Part shown: positions 26,420 through 34,255 of the stretch, in pieces
Position numbering within the stretch: position 1 is the stretch's first letter
Layout: each line of letters starts with the position of its first letter
Assembly: GCF_000226295.1 (NCBI RefSeq)
Contig: NC_016024.1
Span: forward strand, 2,029,501 to 2,093,500
DNA from: Chloracidobacterium thermophilum B
Lineage (GTDB): Bacteria > Acidobacteriota > Blastocatellia > Chloracidobacteriales > Chloracidobacteriaceae
Direction of reading: 5' to 3'
Length of the DNA: 64,000 nt
Translations under genes and position numbers: made by a program
The notes under the pieces: model-generated
The model's database searches: none
Told to the model about the DNA's origin: nothing
Seen by the model: the letters and a program-made list of their open reading frames with translations, nothing else

Positions 26420-26962
26420 GTGGCATATCACACGTTCTATCTCGGACTCGGCAGTAACCTTGGCGACCGCGTGGCTTTGCTGACCCGTGCCATCCAACGG
26501 CTGACCACCGGCGCGAGGCAGTGGCGGTGCGCCAACTGGTATGCCACGGCTCCGGTGGACTACCTGGAGCAGCCCTGGTTTCTCAATACCGTGCTCGAAC
26601 TGACGGTTGACCTGACGCCGGAAGCCATGCTGGCGCAGGGCCTTGGGCTGGAAGCCGAAGCCGGGCGGGTTCGCACCGTCCCAAAGGGTGCGCGGCCGCT
26701 CGACGTGGACATCCTGCTCTGCCAGACCGCAGACGGTGTGTTTCTGGTTTCCGCAGATTCCGCCCTGACGCTGCCGCATCCCCGGCTGCATCAGCGGCGG
26801 TTCGTCCTGACGCCGCTGTGTGATCTCATCCCGGACGCGCAGCATCCACAGCTTCACCAGAGCTTTGCCCACCTGCTGGCCACCTGCCCTGACCACAGCC
26901 CCGTCGAAATCTTTGCGCAGAACGGACTCAGCTTCGGCGGCGGCGCCCGGCCGGAGATGTAG
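26420..26962 (+). CDS. folK: 6-hydroxymethyl-dihydropterin pyrophosphokinase FolK
   Basis: A 180-residue folate biosynthesis enzyme that transfers pyrophosphate from ATP to 6-hydroxymethyl-7,8-dihydropterin. Recognisable blocks are FYLGLGSNLGDR (pterin-binding N-terminus), YATAPVDYLEQPWFLN, GARPLDVDILL and HPRLHQRRFVLTPLCDLIPD. The start is GTG. Its end overlaps the convergent response-regulator gene by 35 bases. No other folate genes are adjacent. Confidence 0.94.
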   Translation: MAYHTFYLGLGSNLGDRVALLTRAIQRLTTGARQWRCANWYATAPVDYLEQPWFLNTVLELTVDLTPEAMLAQGLGLEAEAGRVRTVPKGARPLDVDILLCQTADGVFLVSADSALTLPHPRLHQRRFVLTPLCDLIPDAQHPQLHQSFAHLLATCPDHSPVEIFAQNGLSFGGGARPEM

Positions 26963-28136
26963 CCGTCGGCAACCGCAGGTCCTCCGGCTCCAGTGTTGTT
27001 CCTTCGCAGAGAATGCAGGCCCGCTCGATGCAGTTTTCAAGCTCGCGGATGTTGCCCGGAAAGTCGTAGTCCTGAAGGGCTTTGAGGGCGGCCGGGGAAA
27101 GCGTGACCCGGCGGCGGCGGATTTCGCGGCCGTACTTTTCGGCAAAGTAGTTCGCCAGCGCCGGAATGTCCTCCCGCCGCTCACGCAGCGGCGGGATTTC
27201 CAGCGTGAATACGGCCAGCCGGTAGTACAAATCCTCCCGAAAAGTCCTGGCCGCTACGGCTGCGGCGAGGTCCCGGTTGGTCGCCGCCACAACGCGGACA
27301 TCCACACCAATTTCCTGCCCTCCCCCGATGCGTGTAATGGTGCGGGATTCCAGCGCGCGCAGGAACTTGGACTGGACGGCCAGGGGCAACTCGCCGATTT
27401 CGTCGAGAAACAGTGTCCCACCGCGTGCCAGCTCGAACTTTCCCACCTGCCGCCCGTCCGCGCCGGTAAAAGCGCCTTTCTCATGGCCGAACAGCTCATT
27501 TTCGACCAGGGTTTCAGGGATCGCCGCGCAGTTGATGGCCACAAACGGCGCCTGCCGCCGGTGGCTCAGGTGGTGAATGGCGCGCGCAAACAGTTCCTTG
27601 CCCGTGCCGGACTCGCCAAGCAACAGGACGGTCGTCTCCGTGGGGGCGACCCGTTGCAGTTGCTGTCCGACCTGCTGCATGGCCGGGGAATCGCCGATGA
27701 TGCGCGGAAAACCATAGCGCCGGGCATATTCCTCGCGCATCAGGAGGCAGGCGCGCCGCAGGCGGTGTGTCTCCACGAGGCGCTCCAGCACCAGCAGCAG
27801 GTGGTCAGGATCAACCGGCTTTTGCAGGAAGTCTTCCGCGCCGTCCTTCATGGCGGCGACGGCTTCCTCAATGGAGCCATAAGCCGTCAGGACAACCACG
27901 GGCACGTCCGGGTCGAGGGACTTGGCAGCGCGAAGCACCTCCAGCCCTGTGCCATCGGGCAGGCGCAGGTCGGTCAGCACAACGGTCGGCGGCTGCCGCC
28001 GCAGGGCCTGCCGGGCCTGTTTCAGATCGGCTGCCTCAACGACGCCGTAACCGGCACGCTCCAGCGTCAGCCGCCACATCTGACGCAGAGCATCCTTGTC
28101 TTCGACAATCAAAATGTCTGCCGGGGCGGTGGCCAT
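26928..28136 (-). CDS. sigma-54 activator response regulator without HTH domain
   Basis: A 402-residue NtrC-type protein. Residues 1-120 form a receiver domain with acidic site and phosphoacceptor (TDLRLPDGTG) and KPVD. An AAA+ sigma-54 interaction domain follows (about 140-375), with Walker A GESGTGKE, the sigma-54 contact motif GAFTGAD, Walker B LFLDEIGE, and FREDLYYRL. The protein stops right after the PGNIRELENCIERA block with only about 25 low-complexity residues, so the C-terminal Fis-type DNA-binding domain is missing. folK occupies the sequence beyond. It is downstream of a histidine kinase, its probable partner. Confidence 0.93.
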   Translation of the reverse strand: MATAPADILIVEDKDALRQMWRLTLERAGYGVVEAADLKQARQALRRQPPTVVLTDLRLPDGTGLEVLRAAKSLDPDVPVVVLTAYGSIEEAVAAMKDGAEDFLQKPVDPDHLLLVLERLVETHRLRRACLLMREEYARRYGFPRIIGDSPAMQQVGQQLQRVAPTETTVLLLGESGTGKELFARAIHHLSHRRQAPFVAINCAAIPETLVENELFGHEKGAFTGADGRQVGKFELARGGTLFLDEIGELPLAVQSKFLRALESRTITRIGGGQEIGVDVRVVAATNRDLAAAVAARTFREDLYYRLAVFTLEIPPLRERREDIPALANYFAEKYGREIRRRRVTLSPAALKALQDYDFPGNIRELENCIERACILCEGTTLEPEDLRLPTATSPAGRRRRS

Positions 28137-28148
28137 GTCAATTCCATC

Positions 28149-28709
28149 TCAGGGCTGTCCTTCGGCAGGCTGCTCGCGGTACCGCTTGGCCTTACCTTCT
28201 TCGAGCAAACGGCGCAGCGTCTGGCGCGCCTTGATGACACGCGGGGTGGCATCCTGTTCTGGCGACACCGGACTATCGGCATTGTCCTGCCGCTGCTTTT
28301 CTTCCTCGGCTTCACGCAACTCCTGCCGGGCTTCTTCAACAGCACGCCGCCAGGTTTCTTCCGGGTCTTCAGCGGCCGGTGCGTCCGCATCTTCGCCATT
28401 TTCTCCACGTGGCGGTGGTGCGCCGAAATCGTAGTTGTCCATCGGCCGCGGTGCGGACAGGCGACTTGGGTTTTCGGACGAAGGATTCCGGGACACGCCC
28501 ATATTCGTCATCAACAGGTCCTGGGCCCCGAGAGGTAAATCCTCCATAGGCGGCATCTCCGGTGGCGGTGCCTTGGGCGCAGGTTTCCGGGATGACCGGC
28601 GGTTCTTTTTCCCGGTCGTTGGTGCCGGTGATTGGGCGGAAGCCGGATCAGGGGCCGCCAGCATCACCTCCAAACCGCCTGTCAGAAACAGACTCAACAG
28701 CAGGCTCAT
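28149..28709 (-). CDS. exported Pro/Arg-rich coiled-coil protein
   Basis: A 186-residue protein of unknown family. The N-terminus MSLLLSLFLTGGLEVMLAAPDPASA looks like a signal peptide. A basic Pro-rich region follows (KKNRRSSRKPAPKAPPPEMPP), then about 70 residues of disordered sequence and a C-terminal Glu/Arg/Gln helical segment (RRAVEEARQELREAEEEKQRQ). GAGGTG precedes the ATG. It lies between the kinase and regulator genes with 10- and 12-base gaps, so it is part of that operon and may be a ligand, modulator or envelope anchor. Function is inferred from position only. Confidence 0.7.
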   Translation of the reverse strand: MSLLLSLFLTGGLEVMLAAPDPASAQSPAPTTGKKNRRSSRKPAPKAPPPEMPPMEDLPLGAQDLLMTNMGVSRNPSSENPSRLSAPRPMDNYDFGAPPPRGENGEDADAPAAEDPEETWRRAVEEARQELREAEEEKQRQDNADSPVSPEQDATPRVIKARQTLRRLLEEGKAKRYREQPAEGQP

Positions 28710-28719
28710 GCAGAACACC

Positions 28720-30498
28720 TCACTTTTCAACACCAATCCGCAACGGTAGCGAGATACGAAACTGCGCTCCACCGGCGGGAAGATTGCAGGCTTCAATGCG
28801 CCCATTGTGACTGACGATGATTTTCCGAACAATGGCCAACCCCAGCCCGTGGCCCTGCTTTTTCGTTGTAAAGAAGGGCAGGAACAGGTTGGCCGCGACT
28901 TCCGGCGGAAAGCCAGTGCCGGAATCCTCAAGCAGCAGTGTGACGTCTTCCGGGCCGGTGATGGCGCGCAGCCGCACTTCCCGTACCGGTGCGTCATCGG
29001 GAATCGCCTCCAGCGCATTGCGAAACAGGTTCTCAAAGGCGCGCCGCAGCAGAGCGGCATCGCCCGGAATGACCGGCAGCGACTCCGGCAATACCAGTGT
29101 CACCTCCCGTCGGCGGAAGTCCTCCCGCAGCAGGGTGACGACTTCCTCGACCACGCCGGCCAGGTCAACCGGTGCCATAACGGGGCGCAATGGGCGCGCA
29201 AAGGTCAGAAAATCCGAGACAACCTGCGTCAGATGCCGGACTTCATCCCGCAACGCCCGGGCGGCCGGGTTGTCGGGAACGTCCTGCATAAGCAGCCGGG
29301 CGTAGCCATCCATCGTGGCCAGCGAGTTTTTGAACTCGTGGGCGATACCAGCGGCCATATCCCCCAGACTCGTCAGGGTCTCCCTGGCCTGCGCTGTAGC
29401 TCGCAACGCGGCCAGTTCGGTGATGTTGGCAATCAGACACAGGACGCTCGCAGCGCCAGGAATCGGGGCAACACTGGCCTCAAGCGTGCGCTGATGGCCG
29501 CCGATGAGCACCGTGATGTCGGACTGTCGGCGTACGCTCCCGTCCTGCAGTCCGGCCGCCACCAGGTTCTGAAGGTCCGGCACATCGGCAAAGAATTCTC
29601 GAAACGGTATCCCCGGCGGGCGGCCAAACAAACGCTGGGCAGTCAGATTTGCCAACACGGTCGTACCGTGCTCGTCCACGACGACGAGCGCATCGGGAAT
29701 ACTCGCAATCAGCCGGTCGCTGAACTCGGTCTGCACCAGGGCGCGGTGTTCGGCATCGGTGCGCAGGCGTTCCAGTTCCCGTCCTGCCGATTGCAGGCGG
29801 TCAATGACTTCCTGATAGCCGGCCATGACAAACTCGACGGAAGCCGGCCGGTTGGCGTAAGAGCGCGCGGACGACCGTCCCGAAAGGAAAACGGAACGCG
29901 CCAACCACAGTCCCGCCGCGCCCATAACAAGCCACAGCGGCAGTTCGTAGGCCACACGCAGGACGACGCCTGAAAGCTGCGCCTGGCGATGGCGCGCCAG
30001 CAGGTGCAGATGGCCCAGCCGTTCACCATCAGCCTTGTGCAACGGAACCGTGAGTACCCAAACGCCATGCAGGTACCGGGTCTCTTCCCGGTCAGAGTTG
30101 GCCACATCGAGGTTGTCGGGCAGGGCGAGTTCCCCGGTCGGGTCATTGCGCACGACCACGGTACGCCGCTGCCCCAGGTGGTCATAGATGCCGACGGCCA
30201 TCGTCAGGCCAGACGGAAGCCAATCAGGTGTCAGCGGTTCGGTGATGAACTGCCCCGCCGTGAAGCGGGCTGCCAGGCGGTATGCGGTCAACTGCACTTC
30301 AGCCCGGGTCCGGTGCTGCGCCTCCCGGTCATAGGCGCTGCGCAGAGTGTATGTTGCCCACAACCCTATCAGGCAGACCGTCACCAGCAGGGCCACCAGG
30401 ACAGCCGTCAGCGCCTGGCCGGCCATCGCGCGCCGAAGGCAAAACCTGCCCGCCATGGCGGGCAGGCGGCCAGATGAAACGCACGACGGGACTGACAT
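28720..30498 (-). CDS. membrane sensor histidine kinase with PAS domain
   Basis: A 592-residue kinase: membrane helix about residues 28-50, a periplasmic region, a second membrane helix near 190-210, a PAS domain (about 250-350, ALVVVDEHGTTVLANLTAQRLFG), HisKA phosphoacceptor GIAHEFKNSL, and an HATPase domain with NLFRNALEAI, DSGTGF and KQGHGLGLAIV. The organisation resembles AtoS/NtrB-type kinases that act on sigma-54 activators, and such an activator is two genes downstream. Several start codons are possible because no strong ribosome site is seen; the ATG at 30498 leaves room after the preceding gene. Confidence 0.9.
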   Translation of the reverse strand: MSVPSCVSSGRLPAMAGRFCLRRAMAGQALTAVLVALLVTVCLIGLWATYTLRSAYDREAQHRTRAEVQLTAYRLAARFTAGQFITEPLTPDWLPSGLTMAVGIYDHLGQRRTVVVRNDPTGELALPDNLDVANSDREETRYLHGVWVLTVPLHKADGERLGHLHLLARHRQAQLSGVVLRVAYELPLWLVMGAAGLWLARSVFLSGRSSARSYANRPASVEFVMAGYQEVIDRLQSAGRELERLRTDAEHRALVQTEFSDRLIASIPDALVVVDEHGTTVLANLTAQRLFGRPPGIPFREFFADVPDLQNLVAAGLQDGSVRRQSDITVLIGGHQRTLEASVAPIPGAASVLCLIANITELAALRATAQARETLTSLGDMAAGIAHEFKNSLATMDGYARLLMQDVPDNPAARALRDEVRHLTQVVSDFLTFARPLRPVMAPVDLAGVVEEVVTLLREDFRRREVTLVLPESLPVIPGDAALLRRAFENLFRNALEAIPDDAPVREVRLRAITGPEDVTLLLEDSGTGFPPEVAANLFLPFFTTKKQGHGLGLAIVRKIIVSHNGRIEACNLPAGGAQFRISLPLRIGVEK

Positions 30499-30565: not shown

Positions 30566-33500
30566 TCAGGGCTGACTGATGAGGGTTGGGGCGTTGAAAG
30601 GATCATCATCAGGCGGCGTGTCCGGTGTCACCTTCGGAAAACCACGACTGTTGACGGCAGTGGATTTGGTCAGATAGCTCCCCAAGGCCACCGCCATTTC
30701 ACGCGCCGTAGGACGCCGGGCCGGGTCCTTTTCCATGGCTTGCGCCACCAGACGACTGAGTTCCAGTGGAACGTCGGGCACGACCTCGTGAACCGGTCGG
30801 GGGTTGTGGGTCAGATGCTGGAGTGCGATACCGACAAAGCCGCTGGCGCTGATAAAGGGCAGCAGTCCCGTCAGCATCTGATACAGCATTACCCCGACGG
30901 CATAGACATCCGACCTCCCATCATAAGCCAGATGATTGATGCGCTCCGGCGCCAGATAGGCGGCCGTGCCCACGACGACGCCCAGCGCGCTGACGAGCTG
31001 CTCGCCCGACAATTCTTCCCGTATCAGCTTGGCTACGCCAAAATCCACAACCTTGACAACCTCGCCGTCTTTTGTCTGGTGCAGAAAGATGTTGTCGGGC
31101 TTGATGTCGCGGTGGATCACACCTTCGGCATGGGCGGCATCGAGAACATCGAGCACTGGAATGAGAATTTCGGCGCACCGGGTGGGGGACAATGTGCCAT
31201 ACCGCCGCAACTCGTCGGAGAGCGAGTAGCCCCGCAACAGCTCCATCACGATGTAGGCAATCCCTTCCGCAGACACGCCGGAATCCAGCACGGCCACGGC
31301 GTTCGGGTGATTGACGCGACAGGCTGAAATGCCTTCCCGGCGGAAACGCTCCAGCGCCTGGGGAGAATCGTTGCCAGCCATCGGACGAAACACCTTGACA
31401 GCCACCTTGCGGTTGAGGGCAAGCTGCGTGCCTTCATACACAACACCGAAGCCACCGGCACCGATCTTCACATCCAGGCGGTACTTGCCATCGAGCACCT
31501 TGCCGGGCAGGGCTTCTGCCAGGGCGCTGAACACCAGATCGGTGCGGCGTTGCGCTTCGTCGAGTTCTTCGTTCTTGCGCGCCAGGTCGCGGTTGGCTTC
31601 CAGCAGTTTAAGGTTCTTTTCAGCCAGGTCCTGATTGACAGCAGCCAGAGCCGCCGTCCGCTCGGCCACTTTGGCTTCGAGGGCGAGTGTCCGCTGGCGC
31701 AGCACATACACCCGCCACTGCATGATGCCGAGACCAAGCGCCACACACGCCAGGGCATAGAGCGTAAAGGCCCACCAGCGCACCCACCAGGGCGGGGAAA
31801 TGGTGATGGAAGCTGTCGTCACTTCCTGCACGTGACCAAGGTAGTCCCGGCTGCGAATCCAAAAGGTGTAGGTGCCGGGCGACAGACTGGCAAAGGTGCG
31901 CCGACGGTCAGGCGTCCAAGGCGTCGGATGTGACTCATAACCAATGAGTTGTGTTGAGTACCGGGTTTCGGCGCTGCGAAAGAAACCCAGCAACTCATAT
32001 TCAAACGTCACCTCATTTTCCCCGTGATGGAGTGCCAGGCGCGCCTCCAACTTCCGGGGCTGCCCGTTGACAAGCAGGCGCACAAGACGTGGCGGTGCTG
32101 TCTGGTATTCCCGGTTTTCAAGGCGCTCATCAAAAACGCCCAGACCGGCCACGGTGCCAATCCAGAGGCGGCCTTCACTGTCGCACAGCGCCGACCCACC
32201 GTTGCACTCGTTGCTTGGCAGGCCATCTTCGGTGGTAAAGGTTTCAAGTCGTGGGCGACGCCACCCCTGGCCGGCATCCGGCGTCAGACGCGCCACACCG
32301 CGATTCGTAAACAGGTAGATGCGCCCCTGCCGGTCGTGACGGATTTCATAGATGACGTTGTTCGGGAGCGCCGGGTCGGTGCTGTCATTCAGGGTATGCC
32401 ACTTGATGCCGTTTTCCTGCCACTCACCGACGGTGACGCCGCCGTAGGTGCCGACCCACAGCGTACGCCGGTTTCCGTCCACCAACACGTGCAGGGAGCG
32501 CACCACGTCGCTGGAAAGTGTGCCGTTGGCGCGGTTGTACACTGTCCACTGCCCACGGTACAGCGTGGCCACCCCGCCGCCAAAGGTGCCGAACCACAGG
32601 CGCAGCCCGCCTTCCGGTTCCGGGGTGGCGAGCATGGCGGTCACATACTCATTGCCCACGCCCGACTCGGCGAGGGGAAACCGGCTCCAGCGCCCCTGCT
32701 GCCACACGGCTACGCCTTTTTCCGTGCCCACGAGCAGCCGTGGTGTCCCGTTTTCATCGATCGTTTCCAGCAGGCTCCAGATGCCGTTGTCGGGCAGCGC
32801 CCCATTTTCCCGGTTGAATACCGTCCATTGTCCGTTCTGAAACTGCGCCAGACCGCCGGTGGCGGTTCCGATCCACACGGCCGGGCCGCCGGAGACGCGG
32901 TCGGTTTTGAGCAGACACGACACAAAGCGGCTGGGGAGCGGACTGTTTTCCATCTGGAAGATTTCCCAGCGCCCCTGCCGCAGACGGGCCGCGCCGTGGT
33001 TGCGCGTCCCGATCCAGAAGGTGCGGGAGCCATCCGGTTCCGTGTATTCCAGCAGGGCTTTGACCCCGACGGTGGGGATCATCCCCGGGGGAAAGTTGAC
33101 GCGCTGCCAAGACCCAAGCCGGAGGCACGCCAGTCCACCGCTGTTCGTCCCAACCCACAGCAGCGGCGGGCCATTCCCTGTTCGGGTCTCATATATCGAG
33201 GTGACTTCACTGTTGGGGATGACCTGCGTATCCGTATTGTAGAGCGTCCAGTTTCCGTTCTGGCAAGCGGCTAGGCCGCCGCCATTCGTGCCGACCCAGA
33301 CCGTCGCAGTCCCATCCGGCTGGTAGGTCACGGCCAAGCTCCGAATCTGCTTTGTGCCGCCAAAGTCTTCCCGCACCACCTGCCATTGCCCGTTGCGGTA
33401 GGTTGCCACGCCATGGTTGGCAAAACCGGCCCACAGGGTACGTGTCCCGTCGGGTTCACGCACTTCACCCAAAGCCCGGATGTCATCGGCTGGCATGGCT

Positions 33501-34255
33501 TCTGTTGTGGTGGAATGGAGGCGTTGCACCTGCCCGTCCTGCCATTCAACGAGGCCGCGACTGGTCGCCACCCACAGCAGGGGTTGTCCGCCACGTTCCG
33601 TCGCCAGCAGGGTGCGAACTTCGTCGCTGGGCAAGCCGGCGTTGGATTGGTTGAAGGTCTGCCACCGCTGGCCATCGAAGCGGGCCAGCCCGCCGGGCGT
33701 TCCGGCCCAGAGCGTCGCGCCGCCGCCGGTTTCCGGGACCTCGGCCAGCGCCGTCACCATATCGTGGGGAAAGCCGGCCTGCCCGGACTGGTAGTGACCA
33801 ACAGACTGCCCATCCTGCCAGGCAAACAGGCCGCTGGCATGCGTGCCAAACCACATCCGGCCGTCTCTGGACTGAAGCAGGGCGCGAACCCAGTTGGATG
33901 TTCCTGCGCCGGGCATGTTGATGCGGTGCCACTGATAGCCGTCATAGCGCGCGGCCCCATCCTGCGTGCCAATCCACAGATACCCGTTGGCGTCGCTGGT
34001 CATCGCCATGATCGAGTTCTGGGGCAGGCCGTCCGTATCGGTAAACGTGTGTGCGCCGGGCAGAAACGTCATCGGGGCCGACGCACTTGGGACGGCTGGC
34101 GGACGGACCGGCGCAGCCGGCTTTGCCCCGGCACCTGTTTTCCGGGCAGGCACCATCTGACCAGAGGACAGGCACAACAGCAGGCCAAACCCGGCCCGGA
34201 GCGCCCGCCAGGTCAGCTCGTGCCAGGTTGAACGCTGCCGTCTGCACCCTGTCAT
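30566..34255 (-). CDS. propeller/Y_Y_Y sensor fused to a Ser/Thr protein kinase
   Basis: A 1229-residue membrane protein. A signal-like N-terminus is followed by a long series of two-component regulator propeller repeats (about residues 65-735; DGLPQNSI, YLWIGTQDGAARYDG), a Y_Y_Y domain (about 745-815), one membrane helix (about 822-846) and a coiled coil (850-915). The C-terminal cytosolic part is a eukaryote-like Ser/Thr kinase (920-1195) with ATP lysine Lys954, catalytic HRD Asp1050 and DFG Asp1071, so it should be active. Hybrid two-component sensors normally carry a histidine kinase here. It lies in a minus-strand signalling run. Confidence 0.92.
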   Translation of the reverse strand: MTGCRRQRSTWHELTWRALRAGFGLLLCLSSGQMVPARKTGAGAKPAAPVRPPAVPSASAPMTFLPGAHTFTDTDGLPQNSIMAMTSDANGYLWIGTQDGAARYDGYQWHRINMPGAGTSNWVRALLQSRDGRMWFGTHASGLFAWQDGQSVGHYQSGQAGFPHDMVTALAEVPETGGGATLWAGTPGGLARFDGQRWQTFNQSNAGLPSDEVRTLLATERGGQPLLWVATSRGLVEWQDGQVQRLHSTTTEAMPADDIRALGEVREPDGTRTLWAGFANHGVATYRNGQWQVVREDFGGTKQIRSLAVTYQPDGTATVWVGTNGGGLAACQNGNWTLYNTDTQVIPNSEVTSIYETRTGNGPPLLWVGTNSGGLACLRLGSWQRVNFPPGMIPTVGVKALLEYTEPDGSRTFWIGTRNHGAARLRQGRWEIFQMENSPLPSRFVSCLLKTDRVSGGPAVWIGTATGGLAQFQNGQWTVFNRENGALPDNGIWSLLETIDENGTPRLLVGTEKGVAVWQQGRWSRFPLAESGVGNEYVTAMLATPEPEGGLRLWFGTFGGGVATLYRGQWTVYNRANGTLSSDVVRSLHVLVDGNRRTLWVGTYGGVTVGEWQENGIKWHTLNDSTDPALPNNVIYEIRHDRQGRIYLFTNRGVARLTPDAGQGWRRPRLETFTTEDGLPSNECNGGSALCDSEGRLWIGTVAGLGVFDERLENREYQTAPPRLVRLLVNGQPRKLEARLALHHGENEVTFEYELLGFFRSAETRYSTQLIGYESHPTPWTPDRRRTFASLSPGTYTFWIRSRDYLGHVQEVTTASITISPPWWVRWWAFTLYALACVALGLGIMQWRVYVLRQRTLALEAKVAERTAALAAVNQDLAEKNLKLLEANRDLARKNEELDEAQRRTDLVFSALAEALPGKVLDGKYRLDVKIGAGGFGVVYEGTQLALNRKVAVKVFRPMAGNDSPQALERFRREGISACRVNHPNAVAVLDSGVSAEGIAYIVMELLRGYSLSDELRRYGTLSPTRCAEILIPVLDVLDAAHAEGVIHRDIKPDNIFLHQTKDGEVVKVVDFGVAKLIREELSGEQLVSALGVVVGTAAYLAPERINHLAYDGRSDVYAVGVMLYQMLTGLLPFISASGFVGIALQHLTHNPRPVHEVVPDVPLELSRLVAQAMEKDPARRPTAREMAVALGSYLTKSTAVNSRGFPKVTPDTPPDDDPFNAPTLISQP

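Follow-up and report, generated by a model that had tools for sequence, protein, structure and literature searches.

The sensory heads of hybrid two-component systems (HTCS) comprise two seven-bladed propellers and a YYY domain (PMC3243724), and a scissor-like movement has been reported for BT4663 (PMC8534201). The same kind of head is known in transmembrane transcription regulators (PMC10269533), and PknD of Mycobacterium tuberculosis is a transmembrane receptor Ser/Thr kinase (STK) with an extracellular beta-propeller (PMC2877116). Propeller receptor STKs (PknD) are thus already known, as is the HTCS head on histidine kinases, transcription regulators and, by annotation, diguanylate cyclases. 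An initial annotation of the locus described here had proposed that such a head is joined to an STK in a single protein, and had considered that many described proteins with the same layout would speak against the proposal. No description of an HTCS-type head on an STK was found in the literature searched, which lay mostly outside subscription journals; automatic database annotation may exist. Nor did any paper in this literature name the Pfam families of both the propeller and the kinase.

The locus lies in a 64,000-nucleotide stretch (hereafter, the window) of the genome of Chloracidobacterium thermophilum B, which comprises 3.695 Mb in two contigs (2.68 and 1.01 Mb). The receptor kinase gene (30566-34255, minus strand), delimited from the ORF list of the window, Pfam matches and orthologues in all seven genomes of the genus, begins with ATG and codes for a product of 1229 amino acids. 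The order of domains is a signal peptide, 14 propeller blades, Y_Y_Y, one transmembrane (TM) helix, a coiled coil and an STK. The signal peptide (residues ~1-37; 34145-34255, minus strand) was identified from the sequence and has the h-region ALRAGFGLLLCL. The TM helix (residues 827-845; 31721-31777, minus strand) has a Kyte-Doolittle peak of 1.77 and is the sole TM-like stretch outside of the kinase domain on this scale. It is followed by a predicted coiled-coil signalling helix (residues 852-905; 31541-31702, minus strand) that contains ALEAKVAERTAAL and is common to STK and SpoIIE paralogues encoded in the same genome. The Pfam assignments, together with matches to PDB 4A2L and PknB, bear out the proposal of a one-protein transducer in which a complete STK replaces the histidine kinase behind an HTCS ectodomain.

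Fourteen blade motifs were identified between residues 93 and 702, as would be expected of a pair of seven-bladed propellers. Together with a Reg_prop match (Pfam, 7e-20) and alignment to 4A2L, they place the blades at residues 73-720 (32096-34039, minus strand), probably as two seven-bladed propellers. The membrane-proximal, Ig-like Y_Y_Y domain occupies residues 721-825 (31781-32095, minus strand). Its Pfam match (residues 763-819) scored 19 bits, which is under the curated cut-off of 26.6. Nevertheless, its presence is settled, since alignment with BT4663 (PDB 4A2L; E = 2.2e-34) pairs residues 73-825 with residues 36-785 of that protein, and the paralogues, to which the domain also aligns, pass the Pfam cut-off, as does an orthologue that is 52% identical. 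The product therefore has the parts that define an HTCS head, namely a Reg_prop double propeller and a periplasmic Y_Y_Y domain followed by a TM helix. The output half of an HTCS is absent from it, in that no Pfam match to HisKA, HATPase_c, Response_reg or HTH was found in the product.

The kinase domain spans residues 921-1193 (30677-31495, minus strand), with a Pfam Pkinase match at residues 925-1187 (2.9e-48) and PknB as the nearest solved structure (E = 2e-46). The glycine loop, the VAVK lysine, the alphaC glutamate and the HRD, DFG and APE motifs are all present, indicating that this is a complete Hanks-type STK as predicted from its motifs. Landmarks include K954, E974, D1050 (HRD), D1071 (DFG), E1104 (APE) and S1089 of the activation loop. 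Lys954, Asp1050 and Asp1071 had been named earlier as intact catalytic residues; they are found at exactly those positions and, together with Glu974, are invariant in the 17 homologues compared. Ser1089 occupies what we take to be the place of Thr171 of PknB and is kept in the orthologue group, and the place that presumably corresponds to Thr173 of PknB is a leucine in six of the seven orthologues from the genus. This suggests that phosphorylation of the loop, with Ser1089 remaining, may differ from that in PknB.

Each of the seven genus genomes encodes a full-length orthologue (68-94% identity), and a further orthologue at 52% identity was identified in another genus. Values of dN/dS between orthologues were well below 1 in the propeller, Y_Y_Y, linker and kinase regions, indicating that every domain is under purifying selection. 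Among more distant pairs of orthologues, the kinase is conserved best (79-84% identity versus 67-72% for the propeller). The occurrence of full-length orthologues throughout the genus, combined with purifying selection along the whole gene, rules out an assembly chimaera, a concern that the initial annotation had raised. A hydrophobic N-terminal stretch is present in six of the seven orthologues. In the remaining genome (G003; locus L064, upstream of position 1537, plus strand), a TAA codon is located close to the N-terminus, and the frame that remains has no signal peptide; this stop may be real or a sequencing error.

The breadth of the layout was evaluated with a profile of the junction from Y_Y_Y to the kinase N-lobe (alignment A3), and single matches that spanned this junction were counted. 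Such matches were detected in all 10 genomes of the family, totalling ~63; an 8.3-Mb genome had the highest count, 24. At the level of the order, 13 of the 14 genomes contained them. The product encoded in the window has all of the features of this family, in which a single chain comprises the head, the TM helix, the coiled coil and an STK from the LPGTVLDGKYRL clade. It is thus a member of a lineage-wide, expanded family and no singleton; its occurrence across the family, along with purifying selection, rules out a singleton or decaying fusion. Beyond the order, the matches listed for 396 sampled genomes of the phylum (~6 candidates scored in each) include none that spans the junction, and neither do those listed for 251 genomes of the phylum that includes an Anaerolineae match (~10 candidates scored in each). 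That match was detected when genome contigs were scanned with the whole protein and is to the kinase only, in an Anaerolineae MAG, where the layout is absent. None of the records among 72,556 plasmids covers 80% of the protein, and the viral contigs that were scanned with the junction yielded no match. A different class of the phylum has a related layout, with a GAF domain between Y_Y_Y and the kinase (L144:2447-6382). Tandem pairs of propeller kinases were observed in two genomes (G001:C1:903041-910078 and G006:C1:954324-961362; loci L068, L075, L069 and L076), and one copy was found at this site in the source genome. The kinase domains of these pairs are nearly identical and the heads are divergent, as if the kinase had been homogenized by gene conversion.

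Phylogenetic reconstruction of 76 kinase domains recovered a clade (support 100/100) made up of 31 STKs joined directly to Y_Y_Y, eight STKs with receiver domains (REC-STKs), an STK with WD40-like repeats in two copies, and a coiled-coil STK (397 amino acids) of the same genome. A single clade for the 31 propeller kinases was not rejected (p-AU = 0.455). One origin for all propeller kinases was ruled out for the GAF-containing variant, which lies elsewhere in the tree (p-AU = 0.017), indicating that heads were joined to STKs at least twice. The REC-STKs keep the receiver aspartate motif and have a pre-kinase linker in common with the propeller kinases (LPGTVLDGKYRL; KNEEL, then FSAL, then ALPGTVLD.KYRL). 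Examples in the Acidobacteriota include L146:6393-7832 (minus strand) and L144:6244-7806 (plus strand), as well as a HisKA-REC-STK hybrid of 1409 amino acids (L141:4325-8551, plus strand). The kinase domains of these proteins are 51-53% identical to that of the product studied here and follow the same linker; however, their input is a receiver domain and they have no propeller. The common linker and clade indicate that one kinase module serves both receivers and propeller heads. This suggests that the gene arose when a head of HTCS type was joined to a kinase module that response regulators of this phylum also use as output.

Y_Y_Y matches occur at ten places in the source genome. The head is joined to an STK in three genes (30566-34255, L052 and L053), to a SpoIIE/PP2C phosphatase in two (L054:3169-6648, plus strand; L055:3577-6576, minus strand), and to HisKA-HATPase (L057) and GAF-HisKA-HATPase (L058) in one gene each. 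Alignment of the STK and SpoIIE paralogues revealed a common stretch comprising Y_Y_Y, a PPWW motif, the TM helix, WR, and an LE..VAERT helix, with divergence only past the coiled coil. The two histidine kinases have the head and TM helix in common with the STK paralogues, although their linkers are different. The two SpoIIE proteins are predicted receptor phosphatases with heads of the same kind as those of the receptor kinases. Another propeller/Y_Y_Y gene (L056:4166-8711) lies between two ORFs of 420 amino acids that appear to be identical and are oppositely oriented; these are probably insertion-element genes that disrupted it. One further protein (L060:3523-7677, plus strand) combines Reg_prop and carboxypeptidase-regulatory-like domains with weak matches to AAA/STAND NTPases, and is possibly yet another output for a propeller head. 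Since the genome has the same kind of head on an STK, a histidine kinase and a PP2C-type phosphatase, these proteins provide a natural set for comparing how one receptor and linker may drive three outputs. A broader reading, which we offer tentatively and regard as fairly unlikely, is that the histidine-kinase half of HTCS has been widely rewired in this order of Acidobacteriota. The head would then be freely exchanged among these three outputs and the kinase module held in common with response regulators, such that Ser/Thr and His-Asp signaling would merge into a single network, with receptor kinases and receptor phosphatases that bear similar heads working on shared targets.

Considering the sequence together with the closest described systems, we judge it probable that the product is a dimeric, single-pass, outward-facing receptor STK in which the signal passes from Y_Y_Y through the TM helix and coiled coil to the kinase. 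The two putative seven-bladed propellers would hold the ligand site in the periplasm, and Y_Y_Y would dimerize beside the membrane. Binding of ligand would then shift the paired TM helices in angle or register, and the coiled coil would relay this shift to the two kinase domains, bringing them into a productive arrangement. The kinase domains would thereby be activated, probably through trans-phosphorylation of their activation loops, and would phosphorylate serine or threonine residues of cytoplasmic proteins, the identity of which is a guess. The gene, the order of its domains, the intact catalytic motifs, their conservation, and a linker common to proteins with other outputs were observed directly; dimerization, the direction of signaling and kinase activity are extrapolated from HTCS and PknB-type kinases.

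The genes surrounding 30566-34255 are housekeeping and regulatory in nature. Directly downstream is a gene for a PAS-HisKA-HATPase histidine kinase (28720-30480, minus strand; assigned by Pfam, start codon uncertain), which is followed by a gene for a small protein with no Pfam match (28149-28700, minus strand); both keep this position in all seven genus genomes. A terminator-like hairpin (30444-30467, minus strand) with a GC-rich, 10-bp stem and a T-rich tail overlaps a possible start codon of the histidine kinase gene. Next in order is a gene for an NtrC-like response regulator (26928-28136, minus strand) with Pfam matches to REC and sigma-54 AAA+ domains but none to a DNA-binding domain, which is at this place in five of the seven genomes and was not at its place in the stretch seen in G003 or G004. 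As a guess, the histidine kinase and the regulator are candidate targets of the receptor. Were the receptor to phosphorylate either of them, it would act as a modulator of the adjoining two-component pair and merge Ser/Thr with His-Asp signaling. The co-directional arrangement of these genes, the adjacency of the histidine kinase throughout the genus, and the receiver domains carried by relatives of the STK are consistent with such a role. So is the block of STK, histidine kinase and small gene, which G003 and G004 keep intact although the gene after it differs. However, the wider region is generally colinear in the genus, and adjacency of the histidine kinase is therefore weak evidence of a functional link. 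Moreover, at the propeller-kinase loci examined beyond the genus, an NtrC relative was identified at only one (L138) and a close relative of the histidine kinase at none, and we consider a modulator role to be fairly unlikely.

What the ectodomain senses is a separate matter. The suggestion that the transducer may respond to polymers such as glycans follows from the homology of its ectodomain to BT4663 and extrapolates from Bacteroides. Yet heads of this type also occur on many other outputs, and no polysaccharide-utilization genes were seen in the surveyed neighborhood. C. thermophilum is, moreover, reported to be a nutritional specialist that depends chiefly on amino acids and does not respond to starch, cellulose, chitin or glycogen (PMC4376005). 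These observations argue against the suggestion, and glycan sensing in the manner of Bacteroides HTCS appears improbable. Least probable is that the protein is an inactive fusion kept as a scaffold; partial loss of the activation-loop threonine and the stop in the signal peptide region of the G003 orthologue could be read in this way, but the catalytic motifs show no variation, and in most comparisons between orthologues no other domain is as well conserved as the kinase.

Among known systems, PASTA kinases (PknB/StkP) have the kinase domain that is nearest among solved structures; nevertheless, membership in this group is ruled out, as no Pfam match to PASTA repeats was found in the product and the NCBIfam PknB_PASTA model scored 283 bits against a cut-off of 450. 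PknD is likewise a transmembrane Hanks-type kinase with a propeller on the outside, and is organized as an N-terminal kinase, a TM helix and then one six-bladed propeller at the C-terminus. In contrast, the product described here has 14 blades and Y_Y_Y first and its kinase at the C-terminus, and this reversed order and number of blades rule out a PknD-type kinase. Propeller/Y_Y_Y-SpoIIE proteins (the two paralogues) have the same head, TM helix and linker, and propeller/Y_Y_Y-GGDEF proteins are represented by plasmid records from Granulicella and Salinivibrio whose annotation is diguanylate cyclase; in both cases the output domain is different. The HTCS of Bacteroides (BT4663, PDB 4A2L/4A2M; also 3V9F) resemble the product in their 14 Reg_prop blades, Y_Y_Y and single TM helix, whereas they carry HisKA, HATPase, receiver and AraC outputs in place of an STK. 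With a large extracellular sensor, one TM helix and a cytoplasmic STK, the layout is close to that of plant and animal receptor kinases, and represents a bacterial receptor-kinase-like design built from two-component parts.
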